Part shown: piece after piece, positions 35,839-42,021 of the stretch
Position numbering within the stretch: position 1 is the first letter of the stretch
Layout of the letters: every line of letters begins with the position of its first letter
Origin: Flexivirga meconopsidis
GTDB taxonomy: Bacteria; Actinomycetota; Actinomycetes; Actinomycetales; Dermatophilaceae
Reading direction: 5' to 3'
Assembly: GCF_026162425.1 (NCBI RefSeq)
Contig: NZ_JAOBQJ010000005.1
Location: 248,001 to 312,000 of the forward strand
DNA: 64,000 nt
Position numbers and translations under genes: made by a program
The notes under the pieces: model-generated
What the model saw: only the letters and a program-made list of their open reading frames with translations
What the model was told of the DNA's origin: nothing
The model's database searches: none

Positions 35839-36588
35839 CTACGCCCCAGGGAGGAGGGCGATCGCCGCTGCCGCCGCCTCGGGGCTGTCGACCGTGGTGA
35901 CACCGGCCGCCTGCGCCGGGCGGCGCACGACGACGACCGGCACCCCGAGCTGCGCCGCGGCAGCCAGTTTGGCGGCGGTGTAACTGCCGCCGGAGTCCTT
36001 GGTCAGCAGCACGTCGACCCGGTGCTGCCGCATCAGCGCCACTTCCCCGGGTATGACGTAGGGCCCCCGATCGTGCACGACCCGCCACGCGGTCGGCACC
36101 TCGACGTCGGGGTCCACGACGCGCAGCAGCACCTCGCGGCCGGCCCAGGCGGACGTGAAGAACGGCAGCGTCTGGCGCCCCGTCGTGAGGAACGGCCGCT
36201 GCCCCCATCGCTCGGCTTTCTCGCGCGCCGCGTCGTAGTCGTCGGCCCAGTGCCAGGTGTGCGCGTCAGGGTGCTCGGCCCATCCGGGCCGCGCCAGCCT
36301 GATGAGCGCAATCCCGCTCTCAGCACAGGCTTTTCGGGCGTTCTCCCGCATCCCGGTGGCAAAGGGGTGGGTTGCGTCGACGACTGCCTCAACCCGGTGC
36401 TCCGTCAGGTAGTCGCGCATCCCGGTCACACCGCCGAATCCGCCGATCCGCACCTGCCCCACCGGCAGCCGGGGTGAGGCCACGCGTCCCGCGAGCGAGG
36501 AGGTCAAGTCGTGGCCCCCGTCATACAGGATTTCGGCGAGGGCGCGGGCTTCGGCGGTCCCACCGAGCACCAGTACACGCACCTGCAC
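35839..36588 (-). CDS. cobK: Precorrin-6A reductase
   Basis: 249-aa NADPH-dependent enzyme giving precorrin-6B (dihydro-precorrin-6X). The N-terminal VLVLGGTAEARALAEIL binds the dinucleotide; VVDATHPFATGMRENARKAC and LLTKDSGGSYTAAKLAAA are family signatures. The start GTG at 36588 gives the usual length; a second GTG at 36582 is possible. It stands alone on the minus strand at the edge of the cluster, only 27 bp from the divergent Fe-S protein gene, so the promoters overlap. Confidence 0.93.
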   Translation of the reverse strand: MQVRVLVLGGTAEARALAEILYDGGHDLTSSLAGRVASPRLPVGQVRIGGFGGVTGMRDYLTEHRVEAVVDATHPFATGMRENARKACAESGIALIRLARPGWAEHPDAHTWHWADDYDAAREKAERWGQRPFLTTGRQTLPFFTSAWAGREVLLRVVDPDVEVPTAWRVVHDRGPYVIPGEVALMRQHRVDVLLTKDSGGSYTAAKLAAAAQLGVPVVVVRRPAQAAGVTTVDSPEAAAAAIALLPGA

Positions 36589-36615
36589 GAGGTTACCGGC
36601 CCGAGATAGCCTCCT

Positions 36616-37272
36616 ATGCCGATGGCCCACCCTCTCGGCGAACATCTCGCCTTCGACCTGCACGACCCGTCCGCGACGCCGGACGCGTCGTGGAGTCGTA
36701 TGACGGAGCTGCTCTCCCCCGCTTGGTTGAGGCAGCGAGTGGACACCGTGCAACGGCTGCTGCGTCAGCCCGGCGGCGCCCCCGTCGAACGGCGAGTGGC
36801 GGCCTCGACGGCGCACCTGGGCATCGTGGCGAAGCTGGTTGCCGCACACATTGGCGCACGGGCACTGGGGTGGCCGGGAGTCGTGCTGTCACCGGGCCAG
36901 GTGTGGTGCCGGGAAACGGCGGGTGGACCGTTGGCGTTCTCGTTCGCGGCTGCCACTCATCCGCGAGATCCGTTGCAGGACAGTGTCATCGAGACTTTCA
37001 CCGCCACCGTCGCCGACAGCTTCGCGGTCAGCGAGCGGGTGCTGTGGGGCAACGTCGGATCGGCCGCCAACAGCACGGTCACGCTGATGCGAATGTCCCG
37101 GCCCGACCTCGTGCCGGCCGCGACCGCCGAGGCCGACACTGTCCTCGCGGATCCGCGCATCGACGGCGGTGGCCTCCGCAGCGGCCCGGGCTTCCGGCGG
37201 CGCAGCTGCTGCCTCATCTACCGCGCCGCGGGCACCCGCGAAGCCATCTGCGGCGACTGCGTGCTCGGTTGA
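36616..37272 (+). CDS. FhuF-like (2Fe-2S)-binding protein
   Basis: 218-aa cytoplasmic protein. The C-terminal cluster-binding motif has C198, C199, C212 and C215 (CC-x12-C-GD-C), as in FhuF-type ferric-siderophore reductases, where the spacing is usually CC-x10-C-x2-C. The rest is weakly conserved helical sequence. FhuF members reduce Fe(III) in siderophores. Its place at the border of the cob genes, divergent from cobK, raises the alternative that it helps reduce Co(II) corrinoids (inference; the recognised CobR is missing). Start at 36616 or the second ATG at 36622. Confidence 0.75.
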   Translation: MPMAHPLGEHLAFDLHDPSATPDASWSRMTELLSPAWLRQRVDTVQRLLRQPGGAPVERRVAASTAHLGIVAKLVAAHIGARALGWPGVVLSPGQVWCRETAGGPLAFSFAAATHPRDPLQDSVIETFTATVADSFAVSERVLWGNVGSAANSTVTLMRMSRPDLVPAATAEADTVLADPRIDGGGLRSGPGFRRRSCCLIYRAAGTREAICGDCVLG

Positions 37273-37335
37273 GCCCTGCTCTCCGACGGCGGATCCGTCC
37301 CGTCCACGAAAATTTTTCTCGCATCTGTTCCCATA

Positions 37336-37353
37336 GTGGAAATCGATTACTAC
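37336..37353. promoter_or_regulatory. LacI-type operator candidate before esterase
   Basis: GTGGAAATC/GATTACTAC forms an 18-bp imperfect palindrome (7 of 9 pairs) centred on the perfect AATCGATT (37341-37348), 45 bp before the esterase ATG. The layout resembles LacI-family sites. No regulator gene is adjacent. Confidence 0.45.
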
Positions 37354-37397
37354 AGTCGGCGGCACCAACCGTTACCAACCGAGGAAGGCCACATCGC

Positions 37398-38384
37398 ATG
37401 TCTTCGCATCAGCCCAGTCGACGCAGGGTGCTCAAGGGTGTCGGCGGCGTCGCGGCCGCGACCGCATTGGGGACCGCCGCCGGCGTCGCAGCCGCACCTC
37501 GCGCACACGCGGTGGACGGTTTGCAACAGATCGAGCATCAGAGCTTCGGCCGCATGCAGTACTACCGATTCAAGACCACCGCTCTCGCCTGGAACCCGGC
37601 GGTCAACGTGCTGTTGCCCGACGGCTACACACCCAGCAAGCGTTACCCCGTCTACTACCTCTTCCACGGTGGGGCTCAGGACTTCCGAAAGTTCGACCTC
37701 GAGGACCACATTCGCGACCTGACCGTGGGCAAGCAACTGATCATCGTGATGCCGGATGGCGGCACGGCCGGATGGCACGGTGACTTCGCGCAGAGCAGCT
37801 TGGGTGTGAGGCACTACGAGCAATTCCACATTCACCAGCTGATTCCGTGGGTGGATGCAACGTTCTCGACCTTCGCGGAATTTGCCGGTCGCGCCGTCGG
37901 CGGGTTCTCGATGGGTGGTTTTGGGGCGCTCAAATTCGCGCACGTCTACTACGGTCACTTCGCGTCGGTGTCGGCGCACTCGGGGCCGGCCAACCTGCGC
38001 AGCGCGGCCAACCTCGACATCGTCACGCACTGGATCAACGTCAGCTCGCTGGCCGAGTCAGGCACCTTCCCGCTCTATGCGAACGGCCCGCTCTCGCCGG
38101 CGTGGAATCAGCAGTTCGTGTCCCGGGACAACCCGTGCGAGCACATCGACAGGTTCCGCGGAAAGCGAATCTTCCTCGTGTCGGGCACCAACCAGTCAGA
38201 CGTCAACGAGCGCTTCGTCTTCGGCACCCAGCGCGAGTTCAAGGGCCTGCTCAACGGCGCCGGCATCGGTTACACGGCGTACGAACTCGGCGGTGCCGGT
38301 GACAACGGTGGACACTTCGTGCGCCGCGACCGACTCGTCGAGGACATCAACGGCGTAGTGGCGCACCTGCGCAAGGCGGGCTGA
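37398..38384 (+). CDS. Tat-exported alpha/beta-hydrolase (esterase D / antigen 85-like)
   Basis: 328-aa secreted esterase-type protein. Tat signal SRRRVLKG (7-14) with cleavage likely after AHA near residue 38. The alpha/beta-hydrolase domain shows YYLFHGGAQDFRKF (oxyanion region), the nucleophile elbow GGFSMGGFGALKFAH, and the His in GGHFVRRD; the acid is probably in the LVSGTNQSDVNE loop. Relatives include mycolyltransferases and feruloyl or acetyl xylan esterases; the substrate is not determined. The ATG at 37398 has GAGGAAGG upstream. A palindrome 45 bp upstream suggests sugar-type regulation. Confidence 0.85.
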   Translation: MSSHQPSRRRVLKGVGGVAAATALGTAAGVAAAPRAHAVDGLQQIEHQSFGRMQYYRFKTTALAWNPAVNVLLPDGYTPSKRYPVYYLFHGGAQDFRKFDLEDHIRDLTVGKQLIIVMPDGGTAGWHGDFAQSSLGVRHYEQFHIHQLIPWVDATFSTFAEFAGRAVGGFSMGGFGALKFAHVYYGHFASVSAHSGPANLRSAANLDIVTHWINVSSLAESGTFPLYANGPLSPAWNQQFVSRDNPCEHIDRFRGKRIFLVSGTNQSDVNERFVFGTQREFKGLLNGAGIGYTAYELGGAGDNGGHFVRRDRLVEDINGVVAHLRKAG

Positions 38385-38393
38385 TCGAGTCGC

Positions 38394-39389
38394 TCAGGTC
38401 ACCGGGTCGGCGGGCCGTGTGCGGAACCGGCGGCGGTATTCGGCAGGAGTCGTGTCGAGCCGCCGCCGGAAGGCCCGCACCAGAGTGTCGACCGTGCCGA
38501 GACCGCAGGCGCCCGCGATCCGGTCGAGCGTGTCGTCGGTTGTCTCCAGTCGATTGCGGGCCGCCTCGACGCGCAGCGACTCGACATACGCGTGCGGCGT
38601 CACCCCGAGCTCGGTCTTGAACAGCCTCGTCAGCTGACGGTCTCCGACGTGTGCCTCTGCCGCGAGTTCGCCTACGGTGAGCGGCTTTTGGAGGTTGCGG
38701 AGGATGTAGTGCCGCAGCTCCTCGATCCTCCGAGTGGTCGCGATCTGCTCGAGCGGCACGCTGAACTGGCTCTGCCCGCTCGGCCGCTTCAGATACATCA
38801 CCAGCTGCCGCGCGACGCGCAGTGCGACCCCCTCGCCGAGGTCGTCCGCGATGAGCGCCAGCGACAGGTCGAGGCAGGAGCTGATCCCCGCCCCGGTCCA
38901 GACGTCACCGTCCCGGATGAAGATCGGGTCGGCGTCGACCTCCACGGCCGGGTGATCGGCCGCCAACTGGGCGGCCGTCGACCAGTGGGTGGTGGCCCGC
39001 TTGCCGTCGAGCAGGCCGGCGGCGGCCAGCACGTGGGCGCCGACGCACACCGACGTCACCCGTCGCGTCCGTCTCGCCAATCGGTCCACGGCGGCGACGA
39101 TCTCGGGGTCGACCACGGGCTGCACCCGCCGGTCGGTGTCGACGTCAACCGCCCCGGGAACGATCAGGGTGTCGATCGCCCGTCGCGACAGTTGCTCGAA
39201 GGTCACATCCGGCAGCACGCGCACGCCGGCACCGGTCGTGACCGGGTCGGTCGTCGCCGCCGCCAGCACCACCTCGTATGACGCAGCGTCGTCGGTCACT
39301 CGCCGCGCGAGCGAGAACACCTCCGGCGGCCCCGTGACGTCCAGCAGATCGACCCGGTCGAACAGCACGATCACGATCAGGCGGTCCAC
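38394..39389 (-). CDS. GlxA-family regulator (DJ-1/PfpI plus AraC helix-turn-helix)
   Basis: About 331-aa transcription factor, second of its type in the window. The DJ-1/PfpI-like domain (about 1-165) includes TSVCVGAHVLAAAGLLDGKRATTHW. The AraC DNA-binding domain (about 220-325) includes VGELAAEAHVGDRQLTRLFK and a second helix pair near LDRIAGACGLGTVDTLVRAF. The GTG at 39389 is chosen because GGGAGAGG lies at proper spacing; the GTG at 39395 is too close to it. It diverges from the isochorismatase operon across a 163-bp region with a perfect 10-bp inverted repeat, so it very likely controls that operon. Confidence 0.9.
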   Translation of the reverse strand: MDRLIVIVLFDRVDLLDVTGPPEVFSLARRVTDDAASYEVVLAAATTDPVTTGAGVRVLPDVTFEQLSRRAIDTLIVPGAVDVDTDRRVQPVVDPEIVAAVDRLARRTRRVTSVCVGAHVLAAAGLLDGKRATTHWSTAAQLAADHPAVEVDADPIFIRDGDVWTGAGISSCLDLSLALIADDLGEGVALRVARQLVMYLKRPSGQSQFSVPLEQIATTRRIEELRHYILRNLQKPLTVGELAAEAHVGDRQLTRLFKTELGVTPHAYVESLRVEAARNRLETTDDTLDRIAGACGLGTVDTLVRAFRRRLDTTPAEYRRRFRTRPADPVT

Positions 39390-39428
39390 GTGCACCCTCT
39401 CCCCCGGCGGTCATGACACGGCCCTTGC

Positions 39429-39464
39429 GGCAATGTCGGTTTATGCAGGTTAGACGACATTGCC
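39429..39464. promoter_or_regulatory. Large inverted repeat between GlxA regulator and isochorismatase operon
   Basis: GGCAATGTCG (39429-39438) and CGACATTGCC (39455-39464) are perfect 10-bp inverted arms separated by 16 bp. The arm centres lie 26 bp apart, about two and a half helical turns. A partial extra copy (CCGACAT) follows the right arm. Two-site geometry suits an AraC-type dimer. Located about 40 bp before the regulator start and 88 bp before the first operon gene. Confidence 0.7.
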
Positions 39465-39552
39465 GACATCTGGCCAGCCGCGTAGCGTGGTGAGCACCGC
39501 ACCGGAAACCTGTGCTGAGTCATGAAAACCGTTATCTGAGAAGGGATTTCCC

Positions 39553-40143
39553 ATGTCTCGAACCACCCTGCGCCAGCTCAACAAGTTCGACGACGCTCCG
39601 GCGCCACTGGCCGACTCGACGCTGATCATGGTCGATTACCAGAACACCTACACGACAGGGGTTATGGAGCTCGACGGCTGGGAGGCGGCGCTCGAAGCCG
39701 CCGCCGGCCTCCTCGCGCAGGCGCGCGAAGCCGGCGCCACCGTCGTACACGTCATCAATGACGGAGGTGAGGGCACGCCCTACGACATCCGGGCGGAGAT
39801 CGGGCAGATCCACCCGGCGGTGGCTCCGATCGAGGGAGAAGCCGTGGTCGTCAAGCAGGTGCCGGACGCATTCGTCGACACCGACCTGGGCAACCTCGTC
39901 GACGCCGCCGGGAACGACAATCTGGTCATCGCCGGCTTCATGACCCACATGTGCGTCGCCTTCACGACCCAGGGCGCCTTCCTGCGCAGCAACCGGGCGA
40001 CGGTCGTCGCCAACGCCTGCGCCACCCGCTCGTTGCCAGTCGCCGGCGCCGACCTCGACGCGTGCCAGGTGCATTACGGCGCACTGGCCACCATCGGCGA
40101 CCTGTTCGGCGTGGTGGTCGCGAACGCGAAGGAGCTGAACTGA
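39553..40143 (+). CDS. Cysteine hydrolase, isochorismatase family (cytosolic)
   Basis: 196-aa enzyme of the isochorismatase-like superfamily. The catalytic triad is visible: D28 in VDYQNTYTTG, K101 in VVKQVPDAF and C134 in MTHMCVAFTTQGA, with the cis-peptide region before the Cys. Relatives hydrolyse isochorismate, nicotinamide, N-carbamoyl or biuret-like amides; the active-site Cys argues for an amidase-type reaction. Ribosome site GAGAAGGGA. It overlaps (TGATG) a lipoprotein paralogue sharing the segment from TLRxLNK to LDGW, which points to tandem duplication. Confidence 0.9.
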   Translation: MSRTTLRQLNKFDDAPAPLADSTLIMVDYQNTYTTGVMELDGWEAALEAAAGLLAQAREAGATVVHVINDGGEGTPYDIRAEIGQIHPAVAPIEGEAVVVKQVPDAFVDTDLGNLVDAAGNDNLVIAGFMTHMCVAFTTQGAFLRSNRATVVANACATRSLPVAGADLDACQVHYGALATIGDLFGVVVANAKELN

Positions 40144-40862
40144 TGAGCCGATGGTCAGGCCTGGCGGCCTTCGCCGCGGCAGGAACACTCGCGCTTGGCC
40201 TCAGCGCATGCGGTGCAGCCGGAAGCACGGCCCAGCCGAAGGCCCCCGCGACCTCCACCACGGCCGGCAAGAACCTTGCGAAGGACACGACGACACTTCG
40301 TGAGCTGAACAAACTCCCGGAGAGTCCGGCGACTCTCGCAGATGCGACGCTGGTGCTCGTCGACTACCAGAACGTCTACACGTCGGGCGCGATGAAGCTC
40401 GACGGTTGGCGGCCCGCGGTCGACAACGCGAAGCAGTTGCTCGACAGGGCGCGGGCGGCACGCACTCCGGTGATTCACATCGTCGACAAGGGGTACGACC
40501 TCAAATCGGCGCAAGGACAGATCATTCCGGCGCTCAAACCACGGGCCGGTGAGCAGGTGGTCGTCAAGAGTGTTCCCGACGCGTTTCGGGGCACCCGACT
40601 CCTCGCGGATCTCAAGAAGACCGGCAGGACGAAGGTCATCGTGGCGGGCTTCATGACCCACATGTGCACCCTGTTCACCACCCAGGGAGCGTTCGTCAAC
40701 GGATTCGCGCCGACCGTCATCGGCGACGCGTCGGCAACTCGTGCGCTCCCGCTGAGCGGTGACCCGAACGGGATACCGGCCGATGCGGTTCAACGCACCG
40801 CACTCGCAACAGTGCAGGACCTGTACGGCGTCGTCGTACCCGCCCAACGCGACCTTTCCTGA
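40143..40862 (+). CDS. Lipoprotein isochorismatase-fold hydrolase (exported paralogue)
   Basis: 239 aa. A signal peptide with lipobox LSAC (C23) and a Ser/Thr/Ala-rich tether (about 24-48) precede a full isochorismatase-like domain. The triad is conserved: D74 (VDYQNVYTSG), K142 (VVKSVPDAF) and C175 (MTHMCTLFTTQGA). It is clearly a paralogue of the cytosolic hydrolase just upstream, with a membrane anchor added. Members of this superfamily are normally cytoplasmic, so placement outside the membrane is unusual. Coupled by TGATG. The pair may act on the same substrate on both sides of the membrane (inference). Confidence 0.88.
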   Translation: MSRWSGLAAFAAAGTLALGLSACGAAGSTAQPKAPATSTTAGKNLAKDTTTLRELNKLPESPATLADATLVLVDYQNVYTSGAMKLDGWRPAVDNAKQLLDRARAARTPVIHIVDKGYDLKSAQGQIIPALKPRAGEQVVVKSVPDAFRGTRLLADLKKTGRTKVIVAGFMTHMCTLFTTQGAFVNGFAPTVIGDASATRALPLSGDPNGIPADAVQRTALATVQDLYGVVVPAQRDLS

Positions 40863-40905
40863 CCACCGACCGTCACCGATCACACCAAACCCACAGGGGG
40901 GAACC

Positions 40906-42021
40906 ATGTCCACAACTCGCCGCAGCTTCATGGGCGGAGTCTCGGTCGCGGGTGCCGCGACGTTACTCGCAACGCCGGGAGCGCAGGCCGCGACGACGTC
41001 TGAGACTGCCGCGGTCACGGCCGCGCAGGCGAAGGCGTCCATCCGCGCGGTGAACGCCGGAATGCGCTCGAACTATGCAGCTTTGAAGTCTGAACTGATC
41101 AAGCATCTGTCGCCCGTGATCGTCGTCGAGAACGACGCAAGGGGCGGCAAGTTCACCCTCGTCACCAGTGGCGGGCAGGAGTCGGTCAATCCCGTACCGG
41201 AGGCGTTCGAGCTGGCAAAGTCGATCGCGCATGTGCCGCTCGGGTGCTTCTCGGTGCTCGCCTCATACCTTGCCGACGAGATTCCGGCCGTGCCGAATGC
41301 CGGCCGCATCGACGCGCACGACGTGCTCATGGTGGCGTTCCGCGACGCGTCCTCCACCGCATGGACGGTGCCGTTGCAGGCGTATGCAGACACGCTGACC
41401 ACGGCACGCAAGAATCTGCCGGCGGCCCAGCTGCCACCGGAACTGACACAGTCGTGCACGAACATCCTCGACGGCGCGTTGCGCTTCATCCGCAGTTGCC
41501 TGGCAACGAAGCGTTTTGACATGCAGACGTTCGAATCCTTCTCGGGCAGTGTCTATCCCGACATCCGCACCAACATGAGGTTCGCGTCCGAAGCGCAGAT
41601 CTCCGGTGTCCAGAACGTCATGAACACATGGCGCGCCAGGCTGGGCGCCGCTGCCTGGTCGGACCTCTACACGGTGGTGGTCTCCCAATGGACGACCTCA
41701 GTCCTCAACCAGAACACGATCATCATCAAGGACTGCATGGATCCGGCCAAGGTGGAAACGCACCTGATCGATCTGCCCGGGCTCGAACCGCCGACCGACC
41801 CCATCTTCACTGCGTTGGACAATCTGGCCCGGATCGTCCAGGACAACGTCGCCGCCGAACTCGTCTTCCCCCGGGACACGAAGGTGGCCGATGCGCTCAA
41901 GGGAAGCCAGGACCTGCTGTCCGACGAGATCCTGAACCAACTCGGTAGCACGTCGCCGCTCAGCGCACCGACCTACAACCTGGCCAATGCTGCGGAAGGC
42001 ACGTGTCCGGTCCGACGGTGA
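40906..42021 (+). CDS. Tat-exported protein of unknown function
   Basis: 371-aa protein, third gene of the GlxA-controlled operon. Tat signal TTRRSFMGG (3-11) and cleavage likely after AQA near residue 28. The mature part is mostly helical, with four Cys and no recognised catalytic motif. It contains a long region (about 50-150) with IVVENDARGGKFTLVTSGGQ and a C-terminal helical section ending in TCPVRR. A strong ribosome site (GGGGGGAA) precedes the ATG. No family was recognised. Operon position suggests a binding or catalytic role with the exported hydrolase. Confidence 0.75.
   Translation: MSTTRRSFMGGVSVAGAATLLATPGAQAATTSETAAVTAAQAKASIRAVNAGMRSNYAALKSELIKHLSPVIVVENDARGGKFTLVTSGGQESVNPVPEAFELAKSIAHVPLGCFSVLASYLADEIPAVPNAGRIDAHDVLMVAFRDASSTAWTVPLQAYADTLTTARKNLPAAQLPPELTQSCTNILDGALRFIRSCLATKRFDMQTFESFSGSVYPDIRTNMRFASEAQISGVQNVMNTWRARLGAAAWSDLYTVVVSQWTTSVLNQNTIIIKDCMDPAKVETHLIDLPGLEPPTDPIFTALDNLARIVQDNVAAELVFPRDTKVADALKGSQDLLSDEILNQLGSTSPLSAPTYNLANAAEGTCPVRR

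Follow-up and report, generated by a model that had tools for sequence, protein, structure and literature searches.

We examined a 64,000-nucleotide stretch of the Flexivirga meconopsidis genome (contig NZ_JAOBQJ010000005.1, positions 248,001 to 312,000), hereafter the window, and focused on a gene set in which a GlxA-type regulator gene stands divergent from an operon for two isochorismatase-like hydrolases (IHL1 and IHL2) and a protein, P0003, with a signal for the twin-arginine translocation (Tat) pathway. The first-pass annotation of this DNA had marked positions 39389-42021, which take in the operator and the three operon genes; the regulator lies immediately to the left. In window coordinates, the features are:

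38394..39395, minus strand: GlxA-type regulator gene, divergent from the operon, with an N-terminal DJ-1/PfpI-like sensor domain (PF01965, 80 bits) followed by a C-terminal AraC-type helix-turn-helix domain (PF12833, 79.5 bits).
39435..39468, plus strand: putative 34-bp operator GTCGGTTTATGCAGGTTAGACGACATTGCCGACA, between regulator and operon.
39460-39465, plus strand: -35 box TTGCCG, within the right half of the operator.
39483-39488, plus strand: promoter-like -10 box TAGCGT, with a spacer of 17 to the -35 box.
39553..40143, plus strand: IHL1, predicted cytosolic isochorismatase-like cysteine hydrolase of 196 aa, without a signal (PF00857, 83.6 bits; D28/K101/C134).
40143..40862, plus strand: IHL2, predicted lipoprotein isochorismatase-like hydrolase of 239 aa (PF00857, 101.8 bits; lipobox LSAC, Cys23; D74/K142/C175).
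40906..42021, plus strand: P0003, Tat protein of 371 aa, with the Tat signal TRRSFMG...AQA and the C-terminal Cys-Pro tail CPVRR.

The IHL1 stop and IHL2 start overlap as TGATG, and the P0003 gene starts 43 bp 3' of IHL2. The earlier observation of this gene set was confirmed, and the interpretation placed on it was, as a whole, partly supported. We propose that the set is a ligand-induced, two-compartment amide, lactam or imide hydrolase module with an exported accessory protein, a reading to which we give about an even chance of being correct.

As the first-pass annotation had claimed, IHL1 and IHL2 are tandem paralogues (49-50% identical) with intact Asp-Lys-Cys triads. Both pass the PF00857 gathering score of 27 bits, as two of nine matches to this family in the whole genome, and the catalytic Asp, Lys and Cys are unchanged across 12 aligned proteins of the IHL1/IHL2 type. 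IHL1 orthologues share 62-78% identity; IHL2 has a loop shorter by 5 residues, a shortening that the alignment finds common to its clade. By sequence, the pair falls in the fold family of the isochorismatase-like cysteine hydrolases (CrcA, 8CIB; 4H17; 3LQY; and, farther off, BiuH, RutB, YcaC and PncA), with the Asp-Lys-Cys motif and GFMTHMC around the catalytic Cys. The present proteins differ from the named ones in that one paralogue is predicted to be exported, the IHL2 loop is shortened, and no named family's cut-off is reached: among the NCBIfam equivalogs for biuret amidohydrolase, RutB, YcaC and nicotinamidase, the top score was 46.7 bits against a cut-off of 370 (BiuH). The ‘amide- or signal-degrading’ role suggested in the first-pass annotation is drawn from superfamily membership.

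The best match of IHL1 in the PDB was CrcA (PA1677; 8CIB) of Pseudomonas aeruginosa (E 4e-34), which ranked second for IHL2. CrcA is an isochorismatase-fold protein that antagonizes Crc by binding (PMC10213629), and by analogy the hydrolases might have a non-catalytic or regulatory role. However, CrcA and 4H17, the nearest solved structures, carry a Ser where IHL1 and IHL2 have the catalytic Cys, so that orthology to CrcA was not found by active-site make-up and its role is not to be transferred to the two hydrolases. An exported copy would also be out of reach of a cytosolic regulator that it was to titrate. Because the catalytic Cys is kept, we disfavor a CrcA-like, non-enzymatic role and consider it quite improbable.

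Bacterial isochorismatase-like hydrolases are, to our knowledge, usually cytosolic, and many have no assigned substrate. The lipobox claimed for IHL2 was found at Cys23, followed by a Ser/Thr/Ala-rich linker, and a lipobox is kept in all intact orthologues (as TAC, SAC, AAC or AGC). In a second Streptomyces group (L076, L078, L081, L082), the second-hydrolase slot is occupied by a hydrolase with a Tat signal instead of the lipobox type, and this protein is nearer to IHL1 (65-68% identity) than to IHL2 (about 50%). The hydrolase tree separates the Tat and lipoprotein groups, and the approximately unbiased (AU) test did not reject a single exported clade (p 0.567). The safe statement is that an export signal is conserved, as read from sequence, by two routes (lipobox and Tat). 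An isochorismatase-like hydrolase on the Ochrobactrum plasmid pLM19O2 (L056 5866-6591) likewise has a Tat signal when read from an in-frame start upstream of the annotated one; it adjoins an integrase-core (IS3-like) transposase frame, and no P0003 match was found on that plasmid. At another locus (L015 7220-7798), a single hydrolase starts IHL1-like and continues IHL2-like, an apparent fusion that probably arose by recombination between the tandem paralogues and removed the export signal. A literature search on isochorismatase with twin-arginine and Streptomyces returned nothing relevant, judged by title.

Filamentous pathogens offer a precedent for such enzymes outside the producing cell, since PsIsc1 and VdIsc1 of Phytophthora sojae and Verticillium dahliae are reported to be secreted isochorismatases that interfere with host salicylate signaling and leave the cell by unconventional eukaryotic secretion (PMC4348438). 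IHL2 resembles them as an isochorismatase-family enzyme predicted to lie outside its cell, and differs in its route, which is a bacterial lipobox or, in the second group, Tat. An analogous role in salicylate interference appears very remote here: the carriers are mostly Streptomyces, a membrane-anchored lipoprotein would make a poor secreted effector, and no isochorismatase equivalog scored above cut-off for the hydrolases.

The third protein had been described as Tat-exported and of no recognized family, and this held, in that P0003 of the window matched only the Tat signal model of NCBIfam, at its cut-off; no Pfam family was found among 20 P0003 members, and a sequence comparison with the PDB gave no match. 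The twin-Arg motif is present in nearly all P0003 relatives, the exceptions being L036, L041, L042 and the rhizobial forms. A segment of the form [RDH][IVL][DE].HD[LV].[ML] is internal in the Tat forms and N-terminal in L036, L041 and L042, which have neither a Tat signal nor the internal insert. Judged from its sequences, P0003 is a new, rare and modular family. The non-Tat forms of Brevibacterium (L036) and Ochrobactrum (L042) adjoin a cytosolic hydrolase only, and these few cases would match a pairing of the two proteins by compartment.

Near the P0003 C-terminus, after an unconserved linker, a Cys-Pro pair is present in every aligned row that extends this far (28 of 28); in the other 2 rows it is N-terminal (GCPVRHD and ACPVKHG, from Brevibacterium and Ochrobactrum). 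The tail persists in Agrobacterium and Rhizobium relatives at 27% identity (CPHMA, CPHLRA). These motifs (tails CPVRR, CPVNH and CPWHQ, and the two N-terminal versions) look similar to Cys-Pro heme-regulatory motifs such as GCPWHD of Irr (PMC11442138), a likeness that turns on a short dipeptide. P0003 may possibly bind heme through its Cys-Pro tail, which we offer as a lead.

The structure prediction suggested in the first-pass annotation was run, and two AlphaFold models (pLDDT 75 and 81) consisted largely of helices, with a small beta part. The sole Foldseek match of both was lpg1979 of Legionella pneumophila (4JX2), an uncharacterized putative secreted protein (probability 1.00; E 1e-2 and 2e-3), which resembles P0003 in fold over about 300 columns (TM score up to 0.44) and differs in sequence, with 10% identity. 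Because these E values lie above 0.001, the models suggest kinship with lpg1979 and do not prove it. No literature on lpg1979 was found, and a fold search against viral structures gave nothing convincing. A bolder reading, speculative and in our judgment doubtful, is that the P0003 proteins make up a new family, exported and carrying a cofactor (heme), and form with the duplicated hydrolase an undescribed system that carries out the same reaction on both membrane sides. The exported partner would then have been rebuilt when the family left the cytosol for Tat export, the motif found at the N-terminus of cytosolic forms lying within an internal insert of the Tat forms.

The regulator and operator had been called private to the operon, and we found both to be so. 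The regulator has the domain order of the GlxA type and did not reach the cut-off of the FtrA equivalog; in relatives, its orthologues (71-82% identical) lie next to the hydrolase genes or to the gene for the Tat protein. The operator, with a consensus of about GTCGGTATCTGCATGTTAGACGNCATTGCCGACA, sits in the gap between regulator and operon in more than 50 loci, ahead of either the hydrolase genes or the P0003 gene. Its right half includes the -35 box TTGCCG, and TAGCGT (rarely a variant) follows 17-18 bp on in all but two of these listed loci. The element was collected by similarity search, which makes its observed conservation in part circular; the search pattern did not include the -10 box. 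No second copy was found in the window's genome at up to 3 mismatches, and the operator core is not expected by chance within the window. Operator and promoter are also kept where the operon is reduced to P0003 alone or IHL1 alone. The regulator thus resembles other GlxA/FtrA-type regulators in domain order, in its divergence from the target and in its pairing with a cysteine hydrolase, and differs in having its own 34-bp operator in a single genomic copy. The pairing occurs in Pseudomonadota too, as on Sinorhizobium (S.) meliloti pSymA (L129 3924-5549) a regulator of the GlxA type and a cysteine hydrolase are divergently encoded. A literature search on isochorismatase with GlxA and Streptomyces found nothing.

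The first-pass annotation had called for a search for conserved co-occurrence, and the order regulator/IHL1/IHL2/P0003 did recur in relatives. A genome scan with P0003 gave 37 loci; most were in Streptomyces (52-70% identity), with further ones in Embleya, Kitasatospora, Actinacidiphila, Brevibacterium and Ochrobactrum. The order was the same in about 20 Streptomyces loci, which are most of those with enough flank, and the genes around the set vary, other neighbors being common only within subgroups. Among 296 Streptomyces genomes, 24 carried P0003, 14 carried a close IHL2 orthologue and 10 carried both (hypergeometric p about 1e-9, ignoring the relatedness of the genomes). At L025 and L033, IHL2 stands beside a decayed IHL1. 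The comparison indicates a small, real and conserved gene set of soil actinobacteria that appears mobile.

Within the organism's own family, no full-length P0003 match was found in other genomes (188 searched), and three matches of E~1e-3 did not extend beyond residue 105. In a sister genome, G029, the flanking DNA is present (about 97% identical) and the operon is missing; of the gene set, only the regulator 3' end is left (about the last 63 codons; contig C2, L127 7268-7456, 189 bp, 96% identical). The set was therefore at least partly in the common ancestor and decayed or was lost in G029, and on account of this remnant we rejected a recent horizontal acquisition by the window's organism.

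The patchy, mobile-looking spread, chiefly in antibiotic-producing Streptomyces and soil bacteria and including plasmids, brings in a sharper version of our proposal, by analogy with streptothricin hydrolase: the hydrolase pair might serve antibiotic self-protection or resistance by inactivating a lactam- or amide-bearing antibiotic on both membrane sides. Streptothricin hydrolase is reportedly placed in the isochorismatase-like superfamily by papers treating it together with isochorismatases (PMC11702664, PMC4519933). A private inducible regulator and a pair of inner and outer enzymes would suit a diffusible toxin; against this, the set is flanked by neither a conserved biosynthetic cluster nor a conserved efflux pump or resistance gene, and we regard this specific role as unlikely.

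The genes beside distant relatives bear on another possibility, namely that the set serves nutrition by breaking down a nitrogenous compound, such as a ring amide, a carbamoyl amine or a polyamine conjugate, to yield ammonia or a carbon skeleton. On Agrobacterium and Rhizobium plasmids (L053 and L054), the 27% P0003 relatives lie downstream of genes for an ATP-binding cassette (ABC) transporter, a dihydropyrimidinase, a short-chain dehydrogenase/reductase and an HbpS-like protein, with a D-glutamate cyclase in L053, which suggests a ring-amide pathway for the rhizobial branch; this Agrobacterium operon, however, has no hydrolase of the IHL kind. Distant IHL1 relatives adjoin an amine oxidase and an amino acid-polyamine-organocation (APC) permease (L060), or an oxidoreductase and an ABC transporter (L059), a hint of amine-related substrates, and the S. 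meliloti IHL1 relative beside the GlxA regulator is near adenine deaminase and betaine genes. The hydrolases are weakly similar to the biuret amidohydrolase and RutB models, but their scores are far under all NCBIfam equivalog cut-offs, and the actinobacterial set has no conserved transporter or pathway enzyme. We consider nutrient scavenging as such to be about as improbable as the antibiotic role.

For the two-compartment module that we prefer, the sequence itself shows the gene set and its conservation, the operator and promoter, the catalytic triads and the export signals; binding, activity, substrate and localization are what we infer, as follows. A small compound entering the cytosol would be sensed by the DJ-1/PfpI-like domain of the regulator, which would bind the 34-bp operator, with its right half over the -35 box, and turn on the promoter. 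IHL1 would then split an amide, carbamoyl, lactam or imide bond in the cytosol through the Cys-Lys-Asp mechanism of the superfamily, and IHL2, anchored on the outer face of the membrane, would split the same compound before entry. P0003 would fold before export, in the cytosol, and cross the membrane by Tat, acting outside as a partner of IHL2 for binding or redox, and perhaps holding heme or another cofactor by its conserved Cys-Pro tail. The purpose would most likely be to detoxify or scavenge a soil compound that is toxic or contains nitrogen.

We favor this module because gene order is conserved in unlinked genomes despite variable neighbors, and because P0003 and IHL2 co-occur in Streptomyces genomes. 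It is further suggested by the retained lipobox, the Tat-signal hydrolase in the same slot of the second group and the Tat signal of the Ochrobactrum plasmid hydrolase, by the non-Tat P0003 forms that adjoin a cytosolic hydrolase only, and by the invariant triads together with an operator and promoter kept in shrunken operons.

Several observations weigh against it. Many loci consist of the regulator and IHL1 only, making P0003 and IHL2 dispensable. The first-pass annotation had asked whether the Tat gene has a known family and other neighbors in relatives; no known family was found, and other neighbors were found in part, as P0003 occurs with the regulator only (L019, L020) or alone, without an operator at the loci of these orphan genes, and the hydrolase pair occurs without P0003 nearby (L097, L099, L100). 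The matching of compartments draws on only three P0003 forms without a Tat signal, of which two adjoin a hydrolase. Independent, repeated gain of export was suggested by the tree and dropped because the AU test allows a single exported clade, so we do not claim it. Finally, within actinobacteria the set is not accompanied by any conserved transporter or downstream pathway gene, and a full catabolic pathway is therefore disfavored.

Control of a cytosolic and an exported copy by the same dedicated sensor suggests a substrate met both inside and outside the cell, which narrows the substrate search, and the private operator could be used directly in a reporter to identify the inducer. With P0003 comes an undescribed exported protein family that shows an unusual relocation of a motif.

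Next to the regulator, an open frame on the plus strand (36372-38384) contains the gene of a putative esterase with a Tat signal (PF00756; 37428-38384). No copy of it turned up in a search of four other genomes of this genus, and it is missing beside the regulator remnant of the sister genome G029. At 36616-37272 on the plus strand, a gene encodes a small protein, likely a ferric-siderophore reductase, whose C-terminus is of the FhuF 2Fe-2S type (Pfam FhuF_C, 24.5 bits).

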